NCBI GenBank assembly: GCA_003252455.1
Contig: QKED01000079.1
Location: 1 to 58,880, forward strand
From: Gammaproteobacteria bacterium
GTDB taxonomy: Bacteria; Pseudomonadota; Gammaproteobacteria; Thiohalomonadales; Thiohalomonadaceae
Direction: 5' to 3'
DNA length: 58,880 bases
In this document: positions 13,721-53,686 of the stretch, in pieces
Numbering within the stretch: position 1 is the stretch's first letter
How the letters are laid out: each line of letters opens with the position of its first letter
Notes under the pieces: generated by a model
Seen by the model: the letters and a program-made list of their open reading frames with translations, nothing else
Told to the model about the DNA's origin: nothing
Database searches by the model: none
Position numbers and translations under genes: made by a program

Positions 13721-16666
13721 ATGAGTGAGACCCCCCCCAGGCCCCCCGCAGCGGACGATGCCCAACAGCGCTTTCAGGCCATCTTCGAGCAGGCCGCCGT
13801 CGGTCTCGGGCGTATCGCCCCCGACGGCCACTGGCTAGAGGCCAACCCGCGCCTGTGCGAGATCACCGGTTACCCCCTGGCCGAACTCCTCACCCTCACC
13901 TTCACCGCTATCACCCACCCGGAGGACCGCCCCGCCGACCAACTGGCGTTGGCCCAGCTGCTCGCCCCCGAGGGGGGGAGTATCAATCGTGAAAAGCGCT
14001 ATCTGCGCCCCGACGGCTCCTCGCTCTGGGTGCAGGTGAGCGCCTCGCTGGTGCGCCAGGCCGACGGTCGTCCCGCCTACATCATCGCCGTGGTGCAGGA
14101 CATCGACCTGCGCAAGCGCGCCCTGGAGGCGCTGGAGCTGAGCGAGCGGCGCCTGCGTGCGGTGATCGAGACCTCTCTCGACGGCTTCATGGTCGCCGAC
14201 CTGGAGGGGCGGGTGCTGGAGGTGAACGATGTCTACTGCAACCGCTCCGGCTACAGCCGCACCGAGCTGCTCGGGCGCACCATTCAAACCCTGGAGGGGC
14301 AGGAGAGCCCGGAGCAGATCGCCCTGCACCTGCAGCAGCTCTACCGGCAGGGGGGCGGGGTGTTCGAGACCCTGCACCGCCAGCAGAACGGCACCACCTG
14401 GCCGGTGGAGGTGAGTGTCACCTACTCCGATATCGAGGGTGGGCGGCTGTTCGCCTTCATCCGCGACATCACCGAGCGCTACATGCGCCAGGCGCTGATC
14501 GAGCTGGACCAGCAACTGGCCGAGCTGGGGCACAACGCCAGCGTCGAGGCGCTGATGCGCGCGGCCCTGGACCGTGCCGAGGCGCTGACCCAGAGTCGTA
14601 TCGGGTTCTTCCACTTCGTCGACCCCGACCAAGAGAGCCTCAGCCTGCAGGTGTGGTCGAGCAACACCCTGAGCACCTTCTGCTTCGCCGAGGGGCACGG
14701 GCGCCACTACCCCATCGCCGAGGCTGGGGTCTGGGTCGACTGTATCCACCAGCGCCGCCCGGTGATCCACAACGACTATGCCAGTCTGCCGCACCGCAAG
14801 GGGCTGCCCGAGGGGCACGCCCAGGTGCTGCGCGAGCTCACCGTGCCGCTCTTTCGCCACGGCCTCATCGTCGGCGTCCTGGGGGTGGGCAACAAGCCGG
14901 TGGCCTACAGCCAGGCGGATATCGAACGGGTGCAGCAGATCGGCGACCTCGTCTTCGACCGTATCGAGCACAAACGCACCGCAGACCAGGTGCAGTACCT
15001 CGCCTTCTACGACCCCCTCACCGGACTGCCCAACCGCAGCCTGCTGTTCGACCGTTTGGGCCAAGCGCTGGCGCAGACCCGACGCCTCGGTGGCCAGTTG
15101 GCGGTGGCCTACCTCGACCTGGACGGCTTCAAGCCGATCAACGACCGCCACGGCCACGCCAACGGCGACCGCCTGTTGCAGATGGTCGCCGACCGGCTCA
15201 AGGGTTCGGTGCGCGAGATGGACACGGTGGCACGCCTGGGGGGCGACGAGTTCGTCCTGGTGCTGCTCGGGCAGGCCCAGTCGCGCCACTGCGAGGGGGT
15301 GATCGCGCGCATCCAGCAGGCGCTACGCCAGCCCTTCTTCCTCGGTCGATTGGAGGTGCGCATCAGCGCCAGTATCGGCTACACCCTCTTTCCCCTGGAC
15401 GAGGCCGACCCCGACCTGCTGCTGCGCCACGCCGACCAGGCCATGTACCAGGCGAAGAGCAGTGGCAAGGACGCCTACCGCCTCTACAGCGGCGCCGAGC
15501 ACCAGCGCGTGGCGCAGCGCCAGTTGACCCTGGAGCAGGTCGACCTGGGGCTGGCCCAGGCACAGTTCCAGCTCCACTTCCAACCCCAGGTGAACCTGCT
15601 CAATGGTGAACTGGTGGGGGTGGAGGCGCTGCTGCGCTGGCACCACCCGCACTATGGCCGCCTGCTGCCCGAGGCCTTCCTCTCCCTCATCGAGGGGAGC
15701 GAGCAGGAGCGGCGCCTCGACGACTGGGTGATGCGCAACGCCCTGGCGCAGATCGCCCAGTGGCAGGCCCAGGGGCGGCACATCCCCATCGGCGTCAATC
15801 TGGGCGCCGCGCACCTGCGCCACCCCGGTTTTCTCGACAGCGTGCGCGCCCTCTCCGCCGACTTCCCGCGCCCGGTCACCTCCCAGTTGCAGTTGGAGCT
15901 GCGCGAGGCGACCCTGCATCAGGACGCCGCGCGCCTCACCCCGAGCCTGGAGGGGGCGGCCGAGCTGGGGATTCAGTTGGTACTCGACGGCTTCGGCACC
16001 GACCCCACGCAGATGACCTACCTGCAGCACCTGCCGGTCGACCAGGTGAAGGTCGATCGTCAGCTGCTCCACAGCCTGCCCGAGCACCCCGAGCAGCTCA
16101 CCACCCTGGAGGGGTTGGTGGCCCTGGCGCGGCAGAATCGCGCACCCCTGGTGGCGGTGGGGGTCGACTCCCTCGACCTCGCCGCCCTACTGCTCGACCT
16201 CGGCTGTCACCTGGCCCAGGGCCATGCCATCGCCCACGCCATGAGTGGCGAGGGGCTGCTCGCCTGGTACCAGAGCTGGCCGCAAGAGGGCTTTCGTACC
16301 CTGCTGAGCAGTGAGGCGGAGGGGCCGGGCGATGCCCTACTGCGCGTGGCGCGGCGTCAGCACCAGAGCTGGGCCGACGGCGTCGAGCACTATCTGCGCA
16401 GCGAGCCGCTGGGGCGGAGCCCCAACCTGAGTCCCGAGCAGAGTCACTTCCACCACTGGTACAACGGCCTCGGCGCGCTGCGCTACGCGCGCCGCCCCGG
16501 TTTCGCCTTTCTCGCCGGCCACCACCAGGTGCTCTACCAGCAGGCGCGTGAGCTGGTGGGGCTGCGGACCACTCGTACCACCGCCGAGCTGGTCGAGCCA
16601 CTGGCCGCGTTCGCCCAGCAGCGCGACGAGTTCCTCACCCGTCTCGACCGCCTCGCCAGCGAGTGA
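13721..16666 (+). CDS. PAS-PAS-GAF-GGDEF-EAL protein with degenerate C-terminal CZB-like domain
   Basis: A 981-residue cytosolic c-di-GMP signalling protein. Domains are PAS (about 20-135), PAS (145-255), GAF (270-425), GGDEF (430-595), EAL (610-860) and a CZB-like tail (870-981). The cyclase motif LGGDEF (near 507) is intact and an inhibitory I-site (REMD) precedes it, so cyclase activity is likely. The EAL domain keeps EALLRW (near 637) but has DGFGTD where active enzymes have DDFGTG, and VGVDS in place of EGVE[TS]. It is therefore probably not a phosphodiesterase. The tail has HQSW and a HH pair as in CZB zinc sites, but serine replaces the usual cysteine (SHFHHW). No membrane segment is seen. 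Confidence 0.9.
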   Translation: MSETPPRPPAADDAQQRFQAIFEQAAVGLGRIAPDGHWLEANPRLCEITGYPLAELLTLTFTAITHPEDRPADQLALAQLLAPEGGSINREKRYLRPDGSSLWVQVSASLVRQADGRPAYIIAVVQDIDLRKRALEALELSERRLRAVIETSLDGFMVADLEGRVLEVNDVYCNRSGYSRTELLGRTIQTLEGQESPEQIALHLQQLYRQGGGVFETLHRQQNGTTWPVEVSVTYSDIEGGRLFAFIRDITERYMRQALIELDQQLAELGHNASVEALMRAALDRAEALTQSRIGFFHFVDPDQESLSLQVWSSNTLSTFCFAEGHGRHYPIAEAGVWVDCIHQRRPVIHNDYASLPHRKGLPEGHAQVLRELTVPLFRHGLIVGVLGVGNKPVAYSQADIERVQQIGDLVFDRIEHKRTADQVQYLAFYDPLTGLPNRSLLFDRLGQALAQTRRLGGQLAVAYLDLDGFKPINDRHGHANGDRLLQMVADRLKGSVREMDTVARLGGDEFVLVLLGQAQSRHCEGVIARIQQALRQPFFLGRLEVRISASIGYTLFPLDEADPDLLLRHADQAMYQAKSSGKDAYRLYSGAEHQRVAQRQLTLEQVDLGLAQAQFQLHFQPQVNLLNGELVGVEALLRWHHPHYGRLLPEAFLSLIEGSEQERRLDDWVMRNALAQIAQWQAQGRHIPIGVNLGAAHLRHPGFLDSVRALSADFPRPVTSQLQLELREATLHQDAARLTPSLEGAAELGIQLVLDGFGTDPTQMTYLQHLPVDQVKVDRQLLHSLPEHPEQLTTLEGLVALARQNRAPLVAVGVDSLDLAALLLDLGCHLAQGHAIAHAMSGEGLLAWYQSWPQEGFRTLLSSEAEGPGDALLRVARRQHQSWADGVEHYLRSEPLGRSPNLSPEQSHFHHWYNGLGALRYARRPGFAFLAGHHQVLYQQARELVGLRTTRTTAELVEPLAAFAQQRDEFLTRLDRLASE

Positions 16667-30386: not shown

Positions 30387-31352
30387 ATGCGCCTCGTATA
30401 CTGGACCGTCCCACTCCTGCTGGTCGCGCTGAGCCTGCTCCTGCTGCGCGGTACCCCCCTCGAACCGGCCGCACCCGAGGCGCCGCTGGTGCGCATCGGC
30501 GTGGTCAGCCTCGGTGCCACCGACCACGCCGTCTTCGCCCACCTCAAGGAGGAGCTGGCGGCGCAGGGGATCACCCGGGTCAGCGTCATCGACCCCGGCC
30601 CGGCGGGGAGCCGCGAGCGGCTCCCCGCGTTGGTCAAGGGGCTGCTCGCCCAGCAGCTCGACCTGATCGTCGTCTCTACCACCCCCGCCACCCTGGCGGT
30701 GCGCGAGGCGACCCTGCGCAACCCCATACCGGTGGTCTTCGCCCCGGTCAACGACCCGGTGGGCAGCGGCATCGTCGACAATCTGCGCCACCCCGGCGGC
30801 CACTTCACCGGCGTTTCCACGCGCAACGACGACCCGGTGCGCCTCGCCTGGCTGATCCAGGTGGCGCCCCACGTCAAACGTGTCTACATCCCCTACAGCC
30901 CGGCCGATGCCAGCTCTATGCACAGCCTGTTGCGTGCCCGTGAGGCGGCCGCGCTGCTCGGCCTGGAGCTGCTGGAGCAGGCGGTGGAGGGCGTCGATAC
31001 GCCGCTGCGCATCCCCTCCGAGGCGCAAGCGGTGTTCGTGCCACGCGACGGCATGCTGGAGACGCGCATCGGTCGCATGCTGCACGACCAACCGCTGAGT
31101 GGCCTGCCGGTGGTCGCGCCCAACCTCACCCTGGTTGAGCAGGGGGCCCTGCTCACATATGGTTTCACCCACCAGCGTATCGGTGCCCTGGTCGCGCACC
31201 TGGTGGCGCAGATCTTGCGGGGCGTCTCCCCGGCGGACCTGCCGGTCGAACAGGTGGAGAGTAACCTGGCCATCAATCTGGAGAGTGCGCGGCGGGTCGG
31301 CCTCGTGCTCAACGAGGAACTGTTGCGTCAAGCGCACATCATCTTGCCCTGA
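30387..31352 (+). CDS. ABC_sub_bind (TrpX-type) periplasmic binding protein paired with a GGDEF/EAL receptor
   Basis: The protein has 321 residues. An N-terminal signal anchor (LVYWTVPLLLVALSLLLL) leads to the two-lobed substrate-binding fold of PF04392-type proteins: VRIGVVSLGATDHAVF, LDLIVVSTTPATLAV, IPVVFAPVNDPVGSGIV and YGFTHQRIGALVAHLV. Normally such proteins feed ABC importers for aromatic or other small molecules. Here no permease or ATPase is adjacent. The next gene, 39 bases downstream on the same strand, is a membrane GGDEF/EAL sensor. I infer that ligand occupancy of this protein is reported to that sensor rather than to a transporter. Confidence 0.85.
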   Translation: MRLVYWTVPLLLVALSLLLLRGTPLEPAAPEAPLVRIGVVSLGATDHAVFAHLKEELAAQGITRVSVIDPGPAGSRERLPALVKGLLAQQLDLIVVSTTPATLAVREATLRNPIPVVFAPVNDPVGSGIVDNLRHPGGHFTGVSTRNDDPVRLAWLIQVAPHVKRVYIPYSPADASSMHSLLRAREAAALLGLELLEQAVEGVDTPLRIPSEAQAVFVPRDGMLETRIGRMLHDQPLSGLPVVAPNLTLVEQGALLTYGFTHQRIGALVAHLVAQILRGVSPADLPVEQVESNLAINLESARRVGLVLNEELLRQAHIILP

Positions 31353-31391
31353 ACCCGCCCCCCGGGGCCTTGGCTCTGTATTGGAAAATCC

Positions 31392-35596
<4,205 letters not shown>

Positions 35597-35619
35597 CCTA
35601 TTACGGCCCTTTAAAGGTC

Positions 35620-35633
35620 GGAATTTTCCTACA
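35620..35633. promoter_or_regulatory. Half-palindrome GGAATTTTCCTACA, site B
   Basis: GGAATTTTCCTACA lies about 86 bases upstream of the GTG start at 35719, in the short gap after gmk. It shares the GGAATTTT core and the TTCCTACA half-site with 27787-27800. It is a candidate operator for the GGDEF/EAL gene (inference). Confidence 0.35.
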
Positions 35634-35718
35634 TTTTCGCCTTGCCGCTGGCCGATCCGGCCAGCTAGCATTAGCCCATGACCCGAGCCATTCCTCCCCT
35701 TCAGGTGAGGCGTGCGGC

Positions 35719-38775
<3,057 letters not shown>

Positions 38776-38865
38776 GAGGCGTCGTAGCCGTGGCCGCGAT
38801 TGAGATACACTTGCCCGCGCGATGGGTGTCTACCCATGGCTGAGTCGTTAATGCCCGGAGTGCCC

Positions 38866-39702
38866 ATGTCGTTCCACCTCACCCGCCGTGCCCCTCTCTG
38901 GCTGCTGGCCTGCGTCATGTGTGGTTGGAGCGCCCTGCTCGGGGCCGAGGTGCTCACCGTGGGGGTGGTGCCGCAGCACAACCCGACCCGTCTGGCCGAG
39001 GAGTGGGGTCCGCTGCTGCAGCGGGTGGCGGCAGTGAGCGGCATCCAGCTGCGCTTTCGCACCGCGCCGGATATCCCCATGTTCGAGGAGCGGCTCGCCG
39101 CCGGTGAGTACGACCTGGCCTACATGAACCCCTACCACTACCGCCTGTTCAGCGAGAACCCCGGCTACCGTGCCCTGCTCCACGCGCGCAATCAGGCGCT
39201 GCGCGGCATCCTGGTCGTGCGGCGCGACAGCCCGATCGAGTCGTTGGCGGCGCTGGAGGGGGCGGAGATCGCCTTCCCCAGCCCCGCGGCCTTCGCCGCC
39301 ACCCTGCTGGTGCGTGCCGAGTTCGCCGCCCAGGGCCACCACATCACCCCGCGCTACGTCGCCTCCCACGACTCGGTCTACCACGCGGTGATCAAGGGGC
39401 TCTACCCCGCTGGCGGCGGGGTGGTGCGCACCCTGTTGAGCATGGCGCCGGAGGTGCGCGACCAGCTGCGGGTGATCTGGACCAGCCAACCCTATACCCC
39501 ACACCCCATCGCCACCCACCCGCGCCTGAGCGAGGCGCAGCGCAGTCGGCTGCGCGACGCCTTCGTCGCCCTCGCCGACGACCCGCTGGGGCGCTCGCTG
39601 CTCGACAGCCTGCACATCGACGGCTGGCAGGCGGCGGAGGATAGCGACTGGGCCGATGTGCGCGCCCTGCAGCTCGACCCGGAGGAGGGCGCGAAGCGGT
39701 GA
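38866..39702 (+). CDS. PhnD-type periplasmic binding protein paired with a GGDEF/EAL receptor
   Basis: The protein has 278 residues from the ATG at 38866 (GGAG upstream); earlier ATGs in frame lack a ribosome-binding site. A signal peptide (APLWLLACVMCGWSALLGAEV) precedes a PF12974-type phosphate/phosphonate-binding fold: LTVGVVPQHNPTRLAEEWGPLL, YDLAYMNPYHY, RGILVVRRDSPI, AFPSPAAFAATLL and VYHAVIKGLYPAGGGV. No phn or pst transporter genes are near. Its stop overlaps the start of the following GGDEF/EAL sensor by 4 bases (ATGA), so the two are translationally coupled. This makes a co-receptor role very plausible. Confidence 0.88.
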   Translation: MSFHLTRRAPLWLLACVMCGWSALLGAEVLTVGVVPQHNPTRLAEEWGPLLQRVAAVSGIQLRFRTAPDIPMFEERLAAGEYDLAYMNPYHYRLFSENPGYRALLHARNQALRGILVVRRDSPIESLAALEGAEIAFPSPAAFAATLLVRAEFAAQGHHITPRYVASHDSVYHAVIKGLYPAGGGVVRTLLSMAPEVRDQLRVIWTSQPYTPHPIATHPRLSEAQRSRLRDAFVALADDPLGRSLLDSLHIDGWQAAEDSDWADVRALQLDPEEGAKR

Positions 39703-42700
39703 TGGGGTTGCGTTCGCTCTCGTTTCGCGCCAAGACCATCCTCGGCATCGCGTTGATCGAGGCGCTGCTGCTCGCCCTGCTCATCAGCCAGGTGCTCTAC
39801 TACCTGCACGACAGCACCGAGACCCAGCTACAACAGCGCGCCGCCAGCGTCAGCTCGTTGGTGGCCGGGGCGGCCAAGGAGGCGGTGCTCTCGCACGACC
39901 TGGCGCGGCTGCTCAACCTGGTCGACGAGACCATGCGCAATCAGGACATCGTCTACGTCAGCATCCTCGACGAGGAGGGCAAGGAGCTGGCCCGACGCGG
40001 CCACTCGGCACGCGCCGCCGGGGAGGCCTTCAGCAGCGACTTCCATGTGGAGCAGACCGACGATCAGGTGTTCGACGTGCAGGTGCCGATCCGCGTCGCC
40101 GGCATCGACTACGGGCGCGTCGAGCTGGGCCTCGATGTGCGTCGCGTGCAGGAGATCGCCCGCGACGCGCGCGACCTGAGCCTGGCCATCGCCGCGTTGG
40201 AGATGTTCCTGGTGGCGCTCTTCTCCTACATCCTCGGCGCCTATCTGACCCGTCAGCTGCGCGTGCTGGAGGCGGGGGCGCGCGCCGTGGCCGACGGTCA
40301 ACTCGGCTACCAGGTGGCGGTGCACGGCGAGGACGAACTGGGCCACACCGCCGCGGCCTTCAACCTCATGTCGCGCCATCTGGAGGAGGACCGCGGGCGG
40401 CGTGACTGCATCATGCGCTCGGCCCTCGACGCCATCATCATGGCCGACCACACCGGCACCATCCTCGAATTCAACCCCGCCGCCGAGCGCATGACCGGGC
40501 TCCCCGGTGTGCGTATGGTGGGCCAGCCACGCCTGTTGGAGCTGGTGCCGATGCGCTATCGCGAGGCCTTTTCGGAGGAGTTGGCGCGGGTCGCCAAGGG
40601 GCAGGTGCCGCAGCTCGCCGGGCAGCGGCTGGAGACCTACCTGCGCCGTGCCGATGGCCACGAACTGCCGGTGGAGCTGGCGTTGGCCAGTTCGCAGGTC
40701 GCCGGGCGGCTGCTCATCACCGGCTATCTGCGCGACCTCACCGAGGAGCGTCGCACCCAGGCGCAGTTGCAGGTCTTCTCCCGTGCAGTGGAGCAGAGCC
40801 CCGCCTCGGTGGTGATCACCGACCTGGCCGGTACCATCGAGTACGTCAATCACAAGTTCGTCGAGGTGACCGGTTATCGCGTGGAGGAGGCGATCGGGCG
40901 CAACCCGCGCATCCTCAAGTCGGGTCTCACCCCGCTGGCGCGCTACCGCGAGATGTGGGGGGCCATCAGCTCGGGCAAGGAGTGGCGTGGCGAGCTGGTC
41001 AATCGCAAGTGCGGCGGTGAACTCTACTGGGAGCAGGTGAGCATCTCACCGCTGCGCGGTCCCGACGGCCACACCACCCACTATCTGGCGGTGAAGGAGG
41101 ATGTGACCGAGCACAAGCGCTCGGTGGAGCGGCTGATGCTCGCCGCCAGCGTCTTCACCCACGCCCGCGAGGGGATCATGATCACCGACGCGGAGGGGCG
41201 CATCATCGAGGTCAACGCCGCCTTCAGCCACATCACCGGCTACCCGCGCGCCGAGGTGCTCGGACAGAACCCGCGCATGCTCAAGTCCGGGCGCCATGGG
41301 GCGGAGTTCTACCACGCCATGTGGCACGACCTGCACAGCAAGGGCCACTGGTACGGCGAGGTGTGGAACAAGGATCGCGAGGGGCGCACCTTCGCCGAGC
41401 TGCTGACCATCAGCGCGGTGCGCGACGACGAGGGGCAGATCCTGCACTACGTGGCGCTCTTCTCCGACATCACCCTGCAGAAGGAGCAGCAGCACCAACT
41501 GGAGCACATCGCCCACTTCGACGCCCTTACCGGCCTGCCCAACCGCGTGCTGCTCTCCGACCGTCTGCACCAGGCGATGGTGCAGGCACGGCGCCGGGGA
41601 CAGGTGCTGGCGGTGGCCTATCTCGACCTGGATGGTTTCAAGCAGGTGAACGACGCCCATGGGCACGAGCTGGGCGACCAGCTGTTGGTGCAGGTGGCGC
41701 GGCGCATGCGCGAGGCGCTGCGCGAGGGGGATACCATCGCCCGCCTCGGCGGTGACGAGTTCGTCGCCGTGCTCATCGACCTGCACCATGGCCAGGAGAG
41801 CGTGCCCATCGTCGAACGGCTGCTCTCCGCCGCCGCCTTGCCGGCGCACTTCCCCGAGGGGATCGTGCAGGTCTCGGCCAGTATCGGTGTCACCTTCTAC
41901 CCGCAGGCGCCGGAGGAGGTGGGGGCCGAGCAGCTGCTGCGCCAGGCCGATCAGGCCATGTATCAGGCCAAGCTCGCGGGCCACAACCGCTACCACCTCT
42001 TCGACGCCGAACAGGACCGCCACGTGCGCGGCCACCAGGAGAGCCTGGAGCGCATCGGGCAGGCCCTGCGTGACGAGGAGTTCGTGCTCCACTACCAGCC
42101 CAAGGTGAACATGCGCAGCGGCGAGGTGGTGGGGGTAGAGGCGCTGATCCGCTGGCAACACCCCGAGAAGGGGACCCTCGCACCCTCCGAGTTCCTGCCG
42201 GTGGTGGAGGGGTTGCCGCTGGGGGTGGCCATCGGCGAGTGGGTCATCGACCGCGCCCTGGGCGAGATGGAGCAGTGGCAGGCGCAGGGGTTGGCACTGC
42301 CGGTGAGCGTCAATGTCGCCGCCCGCCAGCTGCAGCAGGGCGACTTCATGGAGCGGCTGCACGCCCTGCTCGCCAGCCACCCCCGGGTCGAACCGCACCA
42401 ACTGGAGCTGGAGGTGCTGGAGACCAGCGCACTGGAGGACCTGGGCATGGTCGCCTCGGTGATCCGCGCCTGCGACAACCTCGGTGTGCGCTTCGCCCTG
42501 GATGATTTCGGGACGGGCTACTCCTCGCTCACCTATCTCAAGCGGCTACAGGCGGCGCAGCTGAAGATCGACCAGAGCTTCGTGCGCGATATGCTCGACG
42601 ACCCGGAGGACCTGGCGATCCTCGACGGTGTGCTCGGGCTTGCCACCGCCTTCCGCCGTGAGGCGGTGGCCGAGGGGGTGGAGACGGTGGAGCACGGGCG

Positions 42701-43169
42701 CATCCTGCTGCAGCTCGGCTGTGAACTGGCCCAGGGCTTTGGCATCGCCCGGCCCATGCCGGCCCAGCAGTTGCCCGAGTGGGTGGCGCAGTGGCGCCCC
42801 GACCCCGTGTGGCGCGAGCAGCGCGCCCTGAGCCGAGACGACCTGCCGCTGCTCTACGCCGGGGTGGAGCACCGCGCCTGGATCCGCGCCATCGAGCAGT
42901 TGCTGGGCGGGGCGCACGCCACCCCGCCGCCACTCGACCACCGCCAGTGTCGCTTCGGCCACTGGCTGCAGACCAACGGTCGGCGGCGCTACGCCAACCA
43001 CCCGGCGATCCAGGAGATCGAGCGTCTGCACCTGGAGGTGCACGAGTTGGCCCATGTCCTCCTCGGCCTGCACCGTAGTGGGCGCGGCAGTGAGGCACGC
43101 ACCCGCCTGCACGGCCTGTTCAAGCTGCGCGACGCCCTGCTCGACCAGCTCAAGCGGCTGACCGTCTGA
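39699..43169 (+). CDS. Membrane HAMP-PAS3-GGDEF-EAL-CZB bifunctional c-di-GMP sensor
   Basis: The protein has 1156 residues. TM1 (12-36), a periplasmic domain of about 120 residues, TM2 (163-187) and HAMP (185-232) lead to three PAS domains (232-345, 360-475, 480-600), GGDEF (605-770), EAL (790-1035) and CZB (1050-1156). The I-site REGD and RLGGDEF (near 684) are intact. The EAL domain has all catalytic positions (VEALIRW, SVNVA, DDFGTGYSS, LKIDQ, AEGVET). The CZB zinc site is HRAW (near 1057), CRFGHW (near 1084) and HLEVHE (near 1111). The start overlaps the PhnD-type gene by 4 bases. From PAS3 onward it is closely similar to the protein at 35719-38775. Confidence 0.92.
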   Translation: MMGLRSLSFRAKTILGIALIEALLLALLISQVLYYLHDSTETQLQQRAASVSSLVAGAAKEAVLSHDLARLLNLVDETMRNQDIVYVSILDEEGKELARRGHSARAAGEAFSSDFHVEQTDDQVFDVQVPIRVAGIDYGRVELGLDVRRVQEIARDARDLSLAIAALEMFLVALFSYILGAYLTRQLRVLEAGARAVADGQLGYQVAVHGEDELGHTAAAFNLMSRHLEEDRGRRDCIMRSALDAIIMADHTGTILEFNPAAERMTGLPGVRMVGQPRLLELVPMRYREAFSEELARVAKGQVPQLAGQRLETYLRRADGHELPVELALASSQVAGRLLITGYLRDLTEERRTQAQLQVFSRAVEQSPASVVITDLAGTIEYVNHKFVEVTGYRVEEAIGRNPRILKSGLTPLARYREMWGAISSGKEWRGELVNRKCGGELYWEQVSISPLRGPDGHTTHYLAVKEDVTEHKRSVERLMLAASVFTHAREGIMITDAEGRIIEVNAAFSHITGYPRAEVLGQNPRMLKSGRHGAEFYHAMWHDLHSKGHWYGEVWNKDREGRTFAELLTISAVRDDEGQILHYVALFSDITLQKEQQHQLEHIAHFDALTGLPNRVLLSDRLHQAMVQARRRGQVLAVAYLDLDGFKQVNDAHGHELGDQLLVQVARRMREALREGDTIARLGGDEFVAVLIDLHHGQESVPIVERLLSAAALPAHFPEGIVQVSASIGVTFYPQAPEEVGAEQLLRQADQAMYQAKLAGHNRYHLFDAEQDRHVRGHQESLERIGQALRDEEFVLHYQPKVNMRSGEVVGVEALIRWQHPEKGTLAPSEFLPVVEGLPLGVAIGEWVIDRALGEMEQWQAQGLALPVSVNVAARQLQQGDFMERLHALLASHPRVEPHQLELEVLETSALEDLGMVASVIRACDNLGVRFALDDFGTGYSSLTYLKRLQAAQLKIDQSFVRDMLDDPEDLAILDGVLGLATAFRREAVAEGVETVEHGRILLQLGCELAQGFGIARPMPAQQLPEWVAQWRPDPVWREQRALSRDDLPLLYAGVEHRAWIRAIEQLLGGAHATPPPLDHRQCRFGHWLQTNGRRRYANHPAIQEIERLHLEVHELAHVLLGLHRSGRGSEARTRLHGLFKLRDALLDQLKRLTV

Positions 43170-43392
43170 GTGGGCCCGCTCGGGGCCTCTCCACCGCGCG
43201 GGCCGAGGCGTGGCCATTGCCCGCTGGCGCGTCGAATGAGAGCTATTCTCCTAGGACCTGGGTCACCACCGCCCCGAACCTTGCCGTGGCGATGGCGTTT
43301 GCCCCTGGCCGCGTGGTCGATGCGCTGGCGTTGTCACCCCGCGCTGGTTTAAGATCAAACGTTCCCCGATTTCTACCTGGAGTGTTTACCCC

Positions 43393-43647
43393 ATGGCCCG
43401 CGTCACCGTTGAGGATTGCCTCGCCTTCGTCGATAACCGCTTTGAACTCGTGCTGGCCGCCACCAAGCGCGCCCGTCAGCTGGCCAACGGTGCCGAGGCC
43501 AAGCTGGAGTGGGATGGCGACAAGCCCACCGTGGTCGCCCTGCGCGAGATCGCCGAGCAGAAGATCAACCCCAAGGACCTCGACAAGTACAACCCCGAGC
43601 GTCCCGCCCCCACCCCCGTCATGCCGATCCTGGACGACGCCGAGTAA
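43393..43647 (+). CDS. rpoZ: RNA polymerase omega subunit
   Basis: The omega subunit aids RNA polymerase assembly and forms part of a ppGpp-binding site in proteobacteria. The 84 residues show the family pattern: [35 protein letters not shown] and [18 protein letters not shown] 43393 follows CTGGAG. spoT begins 30 bases after its stop. The 223-bp upstream gap presumably holds its promoter because the gmk link is broken here. Confidence 0.97.
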
Positions 43648-43677
43648 AAAACCTCACACGCGCCTTTGGAGGCCACC

Positions 43678-45789
43678 GTGTTCCTGATCAGCGACCTGTG
43701 CACCATGCTCGAGAGCTACCTCGACAAGGAGCAGGTCGCGGAGATCTACCGCGCCTACCTGTTCGGCGCCGAGGCGCACGAAGGGCAGACCCGCATGAGC
43801 GGCGAGCCCTACATCTACCACCCGATCCAGGTGGCCAAGATCCTCACCGAGATGCGCATGGACAGCCGCAGCATCATCGCGGCGATCCTGCACGACGTCA
43901 TCGAGGACACCCCCTTCGCCAAGGAGCAGCTCGCCGCCCTGTTCGGTGACGACGTCGCCGAGCTGGTCGACGGCGTCAGCAAGCTGACCCACATCCAGTT
44001 CGAGTCCAAGGCCCAGGCGCAGGCGGAGAACCTGCGTAAGCTGGTGCTCTCCATGGTGCGCGATATCCGCGTCATCCTGATCAAGCTCGCCGACCGCCTG
44101 CACAACATGCGCACCCTGGGCGTGATGCGCCCGGACAAGAAGCGCCGTATCGCCCGCGAGACGCTGGAGATCTACGCCCCCATCGCCAACCGCCTCGGCA
44201 TCAACGCCATGCGCCACGAGCTGGAGGAGCTGGGCTTCGCCGCCTACTACCCGATGCGCTACAAGGTGCTCAGCGAGCAGGTGCGCAAGCTCTGTGGCCA
44301 CCGCCGTGAGGTGGTGCAGAAGGTGCTCGGTGCGCTGGAGCAGCGTCTGGCCCAGGAGGGGGTCGCCGGGCGCGTCTTCGGTCGCGAGAAGCACCTCTAC
44401 AGCATCTATAAGAAGATGCGCAGCAAGCACCTCTCCTTCGCCGAGGTGAGCGACGTCTACGCCTTCCGCATCGTGGTGCAGAACGTCGACGCCTGCTACC
44501 GCACCCTCGGCGTGGTGCACAACCTCTACAAGCCGGTGCCGGGCAAGTTCAAGGACTACATCGCCATCCCCAAGACCAACGGCTACCAGTCCCTGCACAC
44601 CACCCTGCAGACCCCCTTCGGCTTCACCATCGAGGTGCAGATCCGCACCGAGGAGATGGACCGCGTGGCCGAGGCGGGCATCGCCGCCCACTGGCTCTAC
44701 AAGAGCGGCGACGGCAACGGCAACATGGCCCAGGCGCGCGCCCGCGAGTGGCTGCGCAGCCTGTTGGAGATGCAGAAGAGCGCCGGTGATTCACTGGAGT
44801 TCCTGGAGCATGTGAAGGTCGACCTGTTCCCTGACGAGGTCTACGTCTTTACCCCCGAGGGGGACATCATGGAGCTGCCCAAGCGCGCCACGGCGGTGGA
44901 CTTCGCCTATGCCGTGCACACGGATGTGGGCAACAGCGCGGTGGCGGTGAAGATCAACCACCGCCTCGCCCCCCTGAGCAGCCGCCTCTACAGCGGCGCG
45001 CGGGTGCAGGTGATCACCTCGCCCGGCGCCCGGCCCAACCCCGCCTGGCTCAACTTCGTCACCACCGCCAAGGCGCGCGCCAACATCCGCCACTACCTGA
45101 AGAACATGCAGCGCCACGAGTCCGAGGTGCTCGGACGCCGCCTGCTCAACCAGGCCCTCGCGGTGCACGCCCTGACCCTCGACAGCCTGCCCCTGGAGCG
45201 CCTCGACCGCCTGCTGCAAGAGCTGCGCCTCGATACGGTGGAGAGCCTGTTGGCCGAGGTGGGGCTGGGTAACCGCATGGCCGCGGTGCTCGCCGAACGG
45301 CTCGCCCGCAGCGAGGAGGAGACGGCGGCGCAGGAGCGGGTGCAGAGCAGCGGCCCGCTGCTCATCAAGGGTACCGAGGGGTCGGTGGTGAGCTTCGCCA
45401 AGTGTTGCCGTCCCATCCCCGGTGACCCGGTGATCGGCTACCTCTCCGCCGGGCGCGGGGTGGTGGTGCATCTGCAGAGCTGCAAGAACAGCGCAGACTT
45501 TCGCAAGCACCCGGAGAAGTGGATCGAGGTGGCCTGGGAGGAGGACGCCGCCGGCGACTTCTCCGTCGACCTGCGCGTGGACGTGAACAACCAGCGTGGC
45601 GTACTCGCCACCGTGGCGGCGGCCATCGCCGAGACCGACGCGAACATCGAGAACGTCACCCTGGAGCAGCGTGACGGTATCAGCACCTCCATCCACCTTA
45701 CCGTGGGGGTGCGTAATCGCAGCCACCTCGCGCGCATCCTGCGTCGCGTGCGTGCGCTGGACCGGGTGCTGCGCATCCACCGAGGCTGA
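43678..45789 (+). CDS. spoT: Bifunctional (p)ppGpp synthetase/hydrolase SpoT
   Basis: SpoT degrades and, weakly, makes the alarmone (p)ppGpp. The protein has 703 residues from the GTG at 43678, which is 5 bases after GGAGG and aligns with the E. coli start; a TTG 12 bases earlier is less likely. The HD hydrolase domain has HDVIEDTPFAKEQ and LIKLADRLHNMRT (residues 40-150). The synthetase domain has GREKHLYSIYKKM, YAFRIVV, DYIAIPKTNGYQSLHTT and VEVQIRTEEM (about 230-340). TGS (VYVFTPEGDIMELPKRATAVDFAYAVH split over two motifs, near 385-440) and ACT (near 625-700) follow. All key motifs are present. Confidence 0.96.
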   Translation: MFLISDLCTMLESYLDKEQVAEIYRAYLFGAEAHEGQTRMSGEPYIYHPIQVAKILTEMRMDSRSIIAAILHDVIEDTPFAKEQLAALFGDDVAELVDGVSKLTHIQFESKAQAQAENLRKLVLSMVRDIRVILIKLADRLHNMRTLGVMRPDKKRRIARETLEIYAPIANRLGINAMRHELEELGFAAYYPMRYKVLSEQVRKLCGHRREVVQKVLGALEQRLAQEGVAGRVFGREKHLYSIYKKMRSKHLSFAEVSDVYAFRIVVQNVDACYRTLGVVHNLYKPVPGKFKDYIAIPKTNGYQSLHTTLQTPFGFTIEVQIRTEEMDRVAEAGIAAHWLYKSGDGNGNMAQARAREWLRSLLEMQKSAGDSLEFLEHVKVDLFPDEVYVFTPEGDIMELPKRATAVDFAYAVHTDVGNSAVAVKINHRLAPLSSRLYSGARVQVITSPGARPNPAWLNFVTTAKARANIRHYLKNMQRHESEVLGRRLLNQALAVHALTLDSLPLERLDRLLQELRLDTVESLLAEVGLGNRMAAVLAERLARSEEETAAQERVQSSGPLLIKGTEGSVVSFAKCCRPIPGDPVIGYLSAGRGVVVHLQSCKNSADFRKHPEKWIEVAWEEDAAGDFSVDLRVDVNNQRGVLATVAAAIAETDANIENVTLEQRDGISTSIHLTVGVRNRSHLARILRRVRALDRVLRIHRG

Positions 45790-51823: not shown

Positions 51824-53686
51824 CTACCAAGGCTGTGCCTCATCCGCGCCGCTGTTAAAGCGCTGATAGAGGTACTGGAATTTGCGTCGCAGCAGGCCAC
51901 CGGGGTCGTCGGGGATGGCGCGTAGCTGCTGTTGGCGCAGTTGCTCGGCCTCGTCCATCTCGCTGAGGGCCTGGTCGCCCTCGGGCTTGTCGCTCTTGTC
52001 GCCCTCTTGCGGCTGGTCGGGCTGCACCTGTTGTGCCCCCTCCTCCTCGGCCTGCTGCTCGTCCTCACCCGGCTGGGCGGCGTCGGCCTGTTGCTGGTCG
52101 GACTGTTCGGCCTCGTTGGCCTGGCTCTGCTGTCCATCGCTGCCGGACTCATCGCCCTGCTCGCCGGGCTGCGGCTGCTCCTGCTGGCTGTCGTCGCCCT
52201 GGCCCTGCTGACCGTTGCCGTTCTGTTGTTGGTAGCTCTGTTGCTGCTCGCCCTCGTCGCCGGGCTGTTGATCCTGCGGCTGCTGCTGTTGCGCCTGTTC
52301 CGCCAGCTCTTTGAGTTTGGCCTCGATCATCTCTTTGTTGATCTGCGCCTCGCGGTGGTCGGGGTTCAGCTCCAGGGCGCGGTCGAGCGCCTCCAGCGCC
52401 TCTTTGTACTGGCCCATCAGGCCGAGCACGGTGCCGCGGTTGTAGTGCCCCTCGGCGCTGTCGACCTGGGCCCACGCCTTGGCCGCCCCGGCGAGGTCGC
52501 CCTGGCGATAGGCGGACATGGCGCGCCAGGCGGGGTTTTCGAACTCGGCTGCCGCGCGCGGGTAATCCTCGGCGGCGAAGGCGGCGGCGCCGCGCTGGTC
52601 GGGGGTCTGCCACAGTTCGTCCCAGCCCCAGGCGTCGGCGCGCTGGGGCTGCTGGATCAGTAGTAGCGGGATCACCACCCAGAGCACGCCACGGCGGAAC
52701 AAGAGCAGCGCAGCGGGGAGCAGCAGCGGCACGAGCAGGAAGCCCGCGTCGAACCACTCGTCGCTGTTCTGCATCTGGTCGCTCTCGTCGAGGGCGCGGG
52801 TCAGCTCCTCGCCGCCGCTGAGGAGGTAGTCGATGTCGGAGTCGTCCGCCGCCAGGGTGGTGAAGCGGCCAGCGCCTTTTTGCGCCAGCCCCATGAGGGC
52901 GTCGCGGTCGAGGCGCGGGATGACGATCTGGCCGCTGACGTCCTTGAGGAAGCCGCCGCCGCCGAGGCCGATGGGGCCGCCGTCCGGCGTACCGACGCCG
53001 AGCACCGAGAGGCGGTAACCGGCCTTGCGCAGCTTGTCGATGGCGGCGTCGATGCGCGCGTCATCTTCGGCCACGCCGTCGCCGATGTAGAGCAGCTCGC
53101 CCACCGGGGCGTTGCCGCGCTGGAGCAGCTCCATGGCAGAGCTGATCGCCAGGTCGAGGCGGCTGCCCTGACTCGGCATCAGTCCGCTCTCCAGCACCGG
53201 CACCTGCGCGGCGATGGTCTCGGCGTCGCTGGTGAGTGGGCTGACGGTGTAGGGCTGGGCGGCGAAGGCGATGAGCGCGGTGAGCCCCTCGTCGCGGCGC
53301 TTTAAGATGTCGAGCAGCTTGAGGCGGGCGCGGGTGAGGCGGGTCGGCTTGAGGTCGGTGGCGTCCATCGAGCGTGAGAGGTCGAGCAGCACCACCATGG
53401 CCGCCTCGTTGCGCAGCACCGGGCGCTCCATGCGCTCCCAGGAAGGACCTGCCAGGGCGATGACGGCGAGCAGGCCGGTGAGCGCGGCGAGGACGTAGGG
53501 CCACTTGGGGCGCGCCTGTTCGGTGCCTTGCAGCAGGAAGGGGAGCAGGCGCGGGTCGCACACCGCCTGCCAGCTGCGGCTGGTGCGCTCCAGCCCCCAC
53601 CAACGGCGTAGCAGCCAGGCGAGCGGCAGCAGGGCGAGCAGCCACGCGGGGCGGATGAAGTGAAAGTCGTGCAGCAGCGCCTCCAT
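51824..53686 (-). CDS. BatB-BatC fusion: VWA domain plus TPR and Gln/Asp-rich tail
   Basis: The protein has 620 residues from the ATG at 53686, which overlaps the batA stop (TGATG). Two N-terminal helices (about 12-28 and 55-75) are followed by a von Willebrand A domain with MIDAS motif LLDLSRSMDAT (near 90), a helix near 320-350, TPR repeats (GHYNRGTVLGLMGQYKEALE, near 425) and a long Gln/Glu/Asp-rich low-complexity tail (470-590). It ends in a conserved-looking RRKFQYLYQRF. In many bacteria BatB and BatC are separate; here they are one chain. It is probably membrane-bound with the VWA domain on one side, acting with MoxR. Confidence 0.88.
   Translation of the reverse strand: MEALLHDFHFIRPAWLLALLPLAWLLRRWWGLERTSRSWQAVCDPRLLPFLLQGTEQARPKWPYVLAALTGLLAVIALAGPSWERMERPVLRNEAAMVVLLDLSRSMDATDLKPTRLTRARLKLLDILKRRDEGLTALIAFAAQPYTVSPLTSDAETIAAQVPVLESGLMPSQGSRLDLAISSAMELLQRGNAPVGELLYIGDGVAEDDARIDAAIDKLRKAGYRLSVLGVGTPDGGPIGLGGGGFLKDVSGQIVIPRLDRDALMGLAQKGAGRFTTLAADDSDIDYLLSGGEELTRALDESDQMQNSDEWFDAGFLLVPLLLPAALLLFRRGVLWVVIPLLLIQQPQRADAWGWDELWQTPDQRGAAAFAAEDYPRAAAEFENPAWRAMSAYRQGDLAGAAKAWAQVDSAEGHYNRGTVLGLMGQYKEALEALDRALELNPDHREAQINKEMIEAKLKELAEQAQQQQPQDQQPGDEGEQQQSYQQQNGNGQQGQGDDSQQEQPQPGEQGDESGSDGQQSQANEAEQSDQQQADAAQPGEDEQQAEEEGAQQVQPDQPQEGDKSDKPEGDQALSEMDEAEQLRQQQLRAIPDDPGGLLRRKFQYLYQRFNSGADEAQPW

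Follow-up and report, generated by a model that had tools for sequence, protein, structure and literature searches.

The window analyzed here, a 58,880-nucleotide stretch of DNA from a Gammaproteobacteria bacterium of the family Thiohalomonadaceae (GenBank assembly GCA_003252455.1, contig QKED01000079.1), carries two genes for periplasmic substrate-binding proteins (SBPs), each of which directly adjoins the gene for a membrane receptor with the GGDEF and EAL domains of cyclic di-GMP (c-di-GMP) signaling. Comparison of one pair, built on a PhnD-like SBP, with its relatives indicates that the conserved unit is the SBP plus the sensor module of its partner, and that the output is a swappable part (histidine kinase, GGDEF, GGDEF-EAL, or SpoIIE) that has been exchanged several times. 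Each pair probably constitutes a two-part receptor formed by an exported SBP and a membrane GGDEF/EAL partner, a reading for which the evidence is adjacency and homology.

Two SBP genes adjoin genes for Cache-containing GGDEF/EAL receptors

The genes of the two pairs are as follows, and the proteins are named hereafter by their first coordinate (TM, transmembrane segment).

30387..31352, + strand: ABC_sub_bind-family binding protein, 321 amino acids (Pfam PF04392, E 4.5e-36)
31392..34913, + strand: receptor, TM-dCache-TM-HAMP-three PAS-GGDEF-EAL (Pfam dCache_1, HAMP, PAS, GGDEF, EAL)
38866..39702, + strand: PhnD-like (PF12974, Phosphonate-bd) binding protein with an N-terminal signal (Pfam E 5.9e-62)
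39699..43169, + strand: receptor, TM-single Cache-TM-HAMP-three PAS-GGDEF-EAL-CZB (Pfam HAMP, PAS, GGDEF, EAL, CZB; Cache-fold model)

Both pairs lie where an earlier note on this DNA had placed them, with Pfam matches and open reading frame coordinates agreeing on a gap of 39 bp within the first pair and an overlap of 4 bp within the second. By hydropathy, 30387 has a single N-terminal hydrophobic segment (residues 2–20) that is a signal or an anchor, and 38866 has one at residues 9–27; the start of the latter gene is likely the ATG at 38866 rather than the TTG at 38800. In both receptors, a Cache domain lies between two hydrophobic segments (residues 12–30 and 281–299 in 31392). The sCache_3_2 match of 39699 is below threshold (25.1 bits versus a cut-off of 28.4). 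An AlphaFold2 model of its sensor shows a single-Cache fold (mean predicted local distance difference test score, pLDDT, 93.6), and among solved structures those of WalK, CdgS9 (an orthologue of LapD), and CitA lie near this model; LuxQ appears in the list as well (Z 10.1, 3.1 Å, 136 residues). No ABC permease- or ATPase-like neighbor was recognized in the window gene lists, of which seven proteins were covered by the Pfam scan; a loose LSGG-type motif tag stands at 51824–53686.

The sensor module is shared by partners with different outputs

Relatives of 38866 were surveyed in a named collection that excludes the window's own record, using the best 80 of at least 564 confirmed stretches; they occur in Vibrio, Marinomonas, Neptuniibacter, Psychromonas, Thiocapsa, Duganella, Gallionella, and others. 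According to script labels, the gene downstream of the SBP encodes a histidine kinase in 68 loci, a GGDEF/EAL protein in three, and another product in four, with none found in five and an ABC component in none. These labels derive from phmmer searches with domains of this genome, loose motif tags ('EAL', 'ABC_ATPase', 'EAA') not being counted, and some of the 'none' labels reflect a wrongly called reading frame (L169, L176, and L206, by eye). Pfam recovered HATPase_c in 67, HisKA in 53, and HAMP in 66 of the 68 labeled kinases. The four other partners are a HAMP-PAS-SpoIIE protein (L187, Pfam), a kinase-like protein (L158, by eye), and two truncated genes (L165 and L181). L151 was rejected as a c-di-GMP relative because its neighbor is a CBS-GGDEF-EAL protein (CBS by eye) without the sensor module.

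Residues 1–185 of 39699, which comprise a TM, the periplasmic domain, and a second TM, match the N terminus of 74 of the 75 named partners, kinase and GGDEF alike (73 at E < 1e-20 and L181 at 2e-15). The outputs that follow this module are a histidine kinase in 67 partners, GGDEF or GGDEF-EAL in two, and SpoIIE in one, the last being L187:8757–10676, where the same TM-Cache-TM module is joined to a HAMP-PAS-SpoIIE phosphatase. Because the same module stands on kinase, GGDEF, and SpoIIE partners, the SBP and sensor are, as judged from sequence, the conserved unit. The earlier note had taken GGDEF/EAL proteins to be the partner type; this is correct for the window but not specific, given the 67 histidine kinases with the same module. 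Pfam barely marks the module, finding sCache_3_2 in two of the 68 kinase partners at E 1e-4.

A tree of the SBPs, with 117 rows, requires 12 changes of the GGDEF/EAL label, at least six of which are forced by starred branches. Twelve of 129 sequences had been dropped from it (L151, L165, which is the L056 record, L085, L060, L017, L020, L022, L092, L128, L099, L104, and L112). The tree neighbor of the window SBP, with a support of 85, comes from a Halothiobacillus metagenome-assembled genome (L170), where the receptor repeats the HAMP-PAS-GGDEF-EAL-CZB order of 39699. The start of the L170 receptor frame seems broken at L170:6711–6852, with the first TM out of frame or an assembly error.

Distances among SBPs correlate with those among sensors (rho 0.76), and the value is 0.57 when kinase output is controlled, compared with 0.20 for SBP versus kinase output when the sensor is controlled (40 pairs in both cases, 30 of 70 kinase pairs having been left out for want of an aligned catalytic segment). 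The partial value for the sensor was reached by none of 300 permutations. The view that the SBP would work with the sensor rests mainly on this co-divergence. It also bears on the alternative that the receptors sense the solute directly through Cache, with the SBP merely delivering or buffering it without specific contact. Small-molecule binding is common among Cache domains with this fold, and the resemblance of the sensor model to the sensor domains of CitA and WalK speaks for such an arrangement. We nevertheless judge it unlikely, because SBP and sensor stay together across output exchange, because they co-diverge beyond what kinase output explains, and because PF12974 domains also occur fused to PAS-GGDEF-EAL-CZB (C94) and to a kinase (C30) in proteins without a Cache match.

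Several PF12974 genes of the same genome are paired with GGDEF receptors

PF12974 matches 13 places in the genome from which the window comes, and 11 PhnD-like proteins were kept. The match on C100 was rejected as a PhnD relative because the protein is SBP_bac_3 plus SLT, and a weak match on C116 that lies amid ABC genes was set aside. A GGDEF or GGDEF-EAL receptor gene directly follows four of the ten separate PF12974 genes (C102, which is the window, C94, C83, and C17). Since these four adjacencies compare with 49 GGDEF matches above the Pfam cut-off in the whole genome, the pairing exceeds chance (binomial P ~4e-6, with a gene total of 4200 assumed). A second PF12974 protein on C94 (L013:4746–8594) is fused to PAS-GGDEF-EAL-CZB with one TM segment between, the C21 gene is followed by a hybrid kinase gene, and C30 has PF12974 fused to a kinase. 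On C48, C58, and C15, no such receptor or kinase gene lies directly downstream; the C15 gene is closely preceded by a kinase-regulator pair.

Two arrangements have further features. On C17 (L016:7057–9951), an XAC2383-like SBP precedes a HAMP-PAS-GGDEF receptor with a LapD_MoxY_N match. At L017:5898–8060, a PF12974-PAS-histidine kinase fusion is followed by a FixJ-like regulator near sox-like genes (by eye).

The best-scoring relatives of the PhnD-like SBP have no ABC gene directly downstream

Among 626 neighbor genes in the best-80 loci, from four before to five after the SBP, none is a PhnE-like permease. ABC-ATPase-like genes were found in five of the 80 loci and never directly downstream, those of L222, L171, L213, and L172 being on the opposite strand and that of L183 four genes upstream. 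The earlier note had named ABC genes beside homologous loci as the finding that would speak against the pairing. For PF12974, this did not appear, because no ABC gene lies directly downstream in the 80 loci and no PhnE-like gene is among the neighbors; for ABC_sub_bind it did in part, as described below. Its statement that the SBPs stand with receptors and not with transporters also agrees with the search of the own genome, in which no PhnE scored above the cut-off.

The window SBP is matched in 22 of 39 genomes, its own included, and a same-strand gene lies within 120 bp at 54 of 86 places (22 histidine kinases, 19 GGDEF/EAL, two ABC, and 11 other). One of the 11, L099, is PhnE by position; L083, which also adjoins PhnE, was left out of this survey for poor overlap. 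PhnE above the cut-off is represented by five genes in three of the 39 genomes, beside the PF12974 genes of L083, L099, L104, and L112. Over 20 genomes of the same family, the own included, PF12974 has 126 matches at E ≤ 0.001, a figure that takes in weak ones, compared with five PhnE genes above the cut-off in three genomes. For partner labels in the 86-place survey, and in that of ABC_sub_bind loci below, Pfam confirmation is limited to L059, L255, L259, and the partners in the own genome.

These counts bear on the possibility that the SBPs still serve transport via permeases encoded elsewhere, their place beside receptors reflecting co-regulation only. SBPs can work with unlinked permeases, an ABC system accompanied by a weak PF12974 match is present on C116, and some ABC_sub_bind loci are beside ABC genes. 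Against this stand the lack of a PhnE above the cut-off, the absence of ABC genes directly downstream of the 80 relatives and of PhnE among their neighbors, and the lack of a match in the own genome for one ABC_sub_bind-type permease used as query, a search made here without a positive control. Moreover, 38866 scores 67.6 bits with the NCBIfam PhnD model TIGR03431 (cut-off 261.1) and 30387 scores 118.1 bits with the TrpX model NF041285 (cut-off 390), so that neither reaches its cut-off. We therefore regard a purely transport role as very unlikely.

The ABC_sub_bind pair seems to follow the same rule

We examined 27 ABC_sub_bind loci, consisting of the own C74, eight from the 39 relatives, and 18 from 369 genomes of the class (E 1e-12). 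Kinases accompany 12 of them (10 by phmmer; L245 and L145 by eye), ABC genes adjoin six, a GGDEF-EAL gene overlaps the SBP gene by 4 bp in one (L259), one partner is truncated, and six loci are without a clear partner. In one further locus, L139:5105–7801, the ABC_sub_bind gene precedes a DUF6272 gene, a gene for a short product, and, in third place, a GGDEF gene, a set that we take to resemble SiaBCD (Sia module). The own genome has two ABC_sub_bind genes, one followed by the window receptor and the other, with a 4-bp overlap, by a hybrid kinase gene.

Residues 1–300 of 31392 match the L253 and L255 partners, which are kinases, and the L259 partner, which is GGDEF-EAL (E 7e-16 to 2e-14), with weaker matches to the partners of L245 and L258; Pfam finds dCache_1 in the L255 and L259 partners. 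On these fewer data, the rule of a fixed sensor and an exchanged output seems to hold for the ABC_sub_bind pair too.

The binding pocket does not support ligand assignment from family names

The AlphaFold2 model of 38866 (mean pLDDT 93.0) resembles ArrX, PtxB, PhnD, AioX, and XAC2383 by Foldseek, and ArrX is the top match by both phmmer and Foldseek. A Ser-Thr-Ser oxyanion motif is seen in PtxB and also occurs in PhnD (PMC5908839); when the 11 PhnD-like proteins from the own genome were aligned, none showed it. The window SBP reads PAAFAA, of which A-F-A is aligned to S-F-S of ArrX by phmmer; A141, A142, F143, A144, and A145 are each found in 90% or more of the sequences in subfamily alignment A3 (alignments A2 and A3 have 51 named rows each, of 66 printed). 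The pocket histidine is retained in the alignment. The oxyanion-contacting residues of AioX include Ser161 and Ser163 (PMC5908839). Judged via the ArrX alignment, these conserved serines of the AioX/ArrX arsenic-sensor pocket are alanines instead in the window SBP. Phosphonate, arsenate, and tryptophan were thus rejected as ligands to be read from a family name, on the basis of the pocket residues, the ArrX alignment, and the NCBIfam scores. Annotating these genes as 'phosphonate ABC transporter substrate-binding protein' is misleading.

Comparison with known SBP-dependent systems

SBP-driven receptors are an accepted class (PMC9602780), and in a 2022 review, SBP_bac_3 is given as the only member of the periplasmic-binding clan studied in c-di-GMP networks (PMC8846402). 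The earlier note knew of no precedent with the families found here, which is incorrect for PF12974. Teixeira et al. have published a receptor-diguanylate cyclase pair from Xanthomonas citri, XAC2383-XAC2382 (title cited in PMC10380989), and XAC2383 is tabulated as PF12974 (PMC10942540). Like the window, it joins a PF12974 binding protein to a diguanylate cyclase. The window SBP matches the fold of 5ub3, which is XAC2383, at rank 30 with a template-modeling score of 0.76, but profile A3 does not list 5ub3 at E ≤ 0.001, which suggests that the window SBP may belong to another subfamily. The SBP on C17 is closer, with 5ub3 as its best solved match (E 9e-6). The window receptor has EAL and CZB domains beyond an XAC2382-type cyclase.

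AioX, ArxX, and ArrX act with a sensor kinase S and a regulator R (PMC5908839). They share the PF12974 fold with the window SBP, and the AioX-type SBPs signal and do not transport; their kinase partner is the partner type of most window-SBP relatives, whereas the output in the window is GGDEF/EAL. In NspS-MbaA, a periplasmic binding protein acts via a membrane c-di-GMP receptor (PMC8967002, PMC8079147, PMC5646818). The ligands of that system are polyamines, and its binding protein is from another family than the window SBPs. PhnD and TrpX of ABC importers share Pfam family and fold with the window SBPs, which, unlike them, are without an adjoining permease or ATPase and score far below the equivalog cut-offs. 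NspS itself is PotD-like. In the literature searched, we found no description of this SBP-Cache subfamily or its output exchange, part of which the 2018 XAC2383 paper may discuss, and met no published ABC_sub_bind-cyclase pair, no search having been aimed at ABC_sub_bind.

A proposed mechanism and points against it

In the mechanism that we favor for the two-part receptors, the exported SBP would capture a solute in the periplasm and, most likely when loaded and closed, would dock on its partner's Cache domain. From there, the signal would pass TM2, HAMP, and the PAS linkers to change the GGDEF/EAL output, and 39699 would get a second, cytoplasmic input through CZB. Such an arrangement matters because no signal is known for many c-di-GMP enzymes with periplasmic domains, and a conserved pocket in a soluble SBP is an easy target for ligand screening. 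If the relatives share the ligand, a single compound would account for the input to many kinases and cyclases. An SBP-sensor unit that stays fixed while its outputs change also offers a natural series for learning how one periplasmic signal drives different enzymes.

Several points weigh against this interpretation. The evidence is adjacency and homology; we infer the contact between SBP and receptor, the direction of the response, the ligand, the activity, and any role in biofilms. Proteins of c-di-GMP metabolism with the sensor module are a minority form, just two of the 75 named partners (L170 and L186). Among solved relatives, subfamily profile A3 ranks two transport-type PtxB chains above ArrX, which is third, and the six ABC_sub_bind loci adjoined by ABC genes were noted above. 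The SBP tree was built quickly and contains several long branches, and tree, distance comparison, and neighbor counts all take related loci as independent. Finally, in the other member of the window-SBP clade in this genome, C59 (L011:1–6317), the receptor is cut by the contig end. As a separate observation, the SBP gene of that locus adjoins genes resembling a polysaccharide-export cluster.

Genes around the relatives point by association to biofilm control

Two gene clusters recur around the best-80 loci: c0, made up of GGDEF/EAL proteins that mostly carry a receiver domain, and c1, whose members are REC-HD or REC-HDOD. They are more common at positions -2, -1, +2, and +3 (50 of 293 genes) than at -5, -4, +5, and +6 (12 of 217; Fisher P 6e-5), offsets -3 and +4 (7 of 135) having been left out of the test. 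Cluster c1 is mixed, with five REC-HD_5 and three REC-HDOD proteins among eight scanned; naming it REC-HD-GYP would be too strong, HD-G plus GYP motifs being present in only three of 44. Genes of c0, c1, or polysaccharide export occur in 45 of the 80 loci, a count that, because c1 is mixed, takes in HDOD regulators, for which a tie to c-di-GMP cannot be taken for granted. An H-NOX cluster is found in nine loci and polysaccharide-export clusters in ten (each named from one scanned member). By association only, this neighborhood points to biofilm control.

Tentatively, the PhnD-like SBP and its Cache module may be a portable receptor for one conserved solute, and this receptor may feed biofilm control in three ways: a kinase beside REC-EAL, REC-HD, and REC-HDOD regulators, sometimes with H-NOX; a kinase that has a sigma-54 regulator and genes for polysaccharide export as neighbors; and, as here, direct fusion to GGDEF-EAL.

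A third gene and the output domains

Directly upstream of the PhnD-like gene lies a gene that the earlier note did not mention.

35719..38775, + strand: PAS x3-GGDEF-EAL-CZB protein with two N-terminal hydrophobic segments, residues 24–42 and 54–72 (Pfam, hydropathy)

Over 60-residue stretches, 39699 and 35719 are 19–26% identical before residue 480 and 58–85% beyond it, with 40–47% in the CZB region; at the DNA level, identity is 80.7% across 1804 bp from about residue 480 on. The simplest reading is that the two genes would have come to share their PAS-GGDEF-EAL-CZB part by tandem duplication or conversion, which may have run in either direction, since the L170 receptor has the same architecture. 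Both CZB domains exceed the Pfam cut-off of 29.4 bits (44.1 for 39699 and 40.6 for 35719), and the H, C, HxxxH pattern, which we take to be the zinc ligands, is present.

We presume the motif residues of GGDEF and EAL to be catalytic. In 39699, GGDEF is accompanied by an RxxD site and the EAL motifs are intact, and from these motifs the protein is probably bifunctional or mainly a phosphodiesterase. In 31392, GGDEF is intact without an RxxD I-site, and the EAL loop reads DNCGRL where the others have DDFGTG. Because this loop is degenerate, 31392 is predicted to be mainly a diguanylate cyclase and probably mainly makes c-di-GMP.

The genes from 35719 to 43169 (region 34910–45789) lie between guanylate kinase-like and rpoZ-like (43393) and spoT-like (43666) genes, named by eye, in what is presumably a nucleotide-signaling cluster that is usually compact. 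An additional GGDEF-EAL protein of 981 amino acids is encoded at 13721–16666, with no adjoining binding protein.

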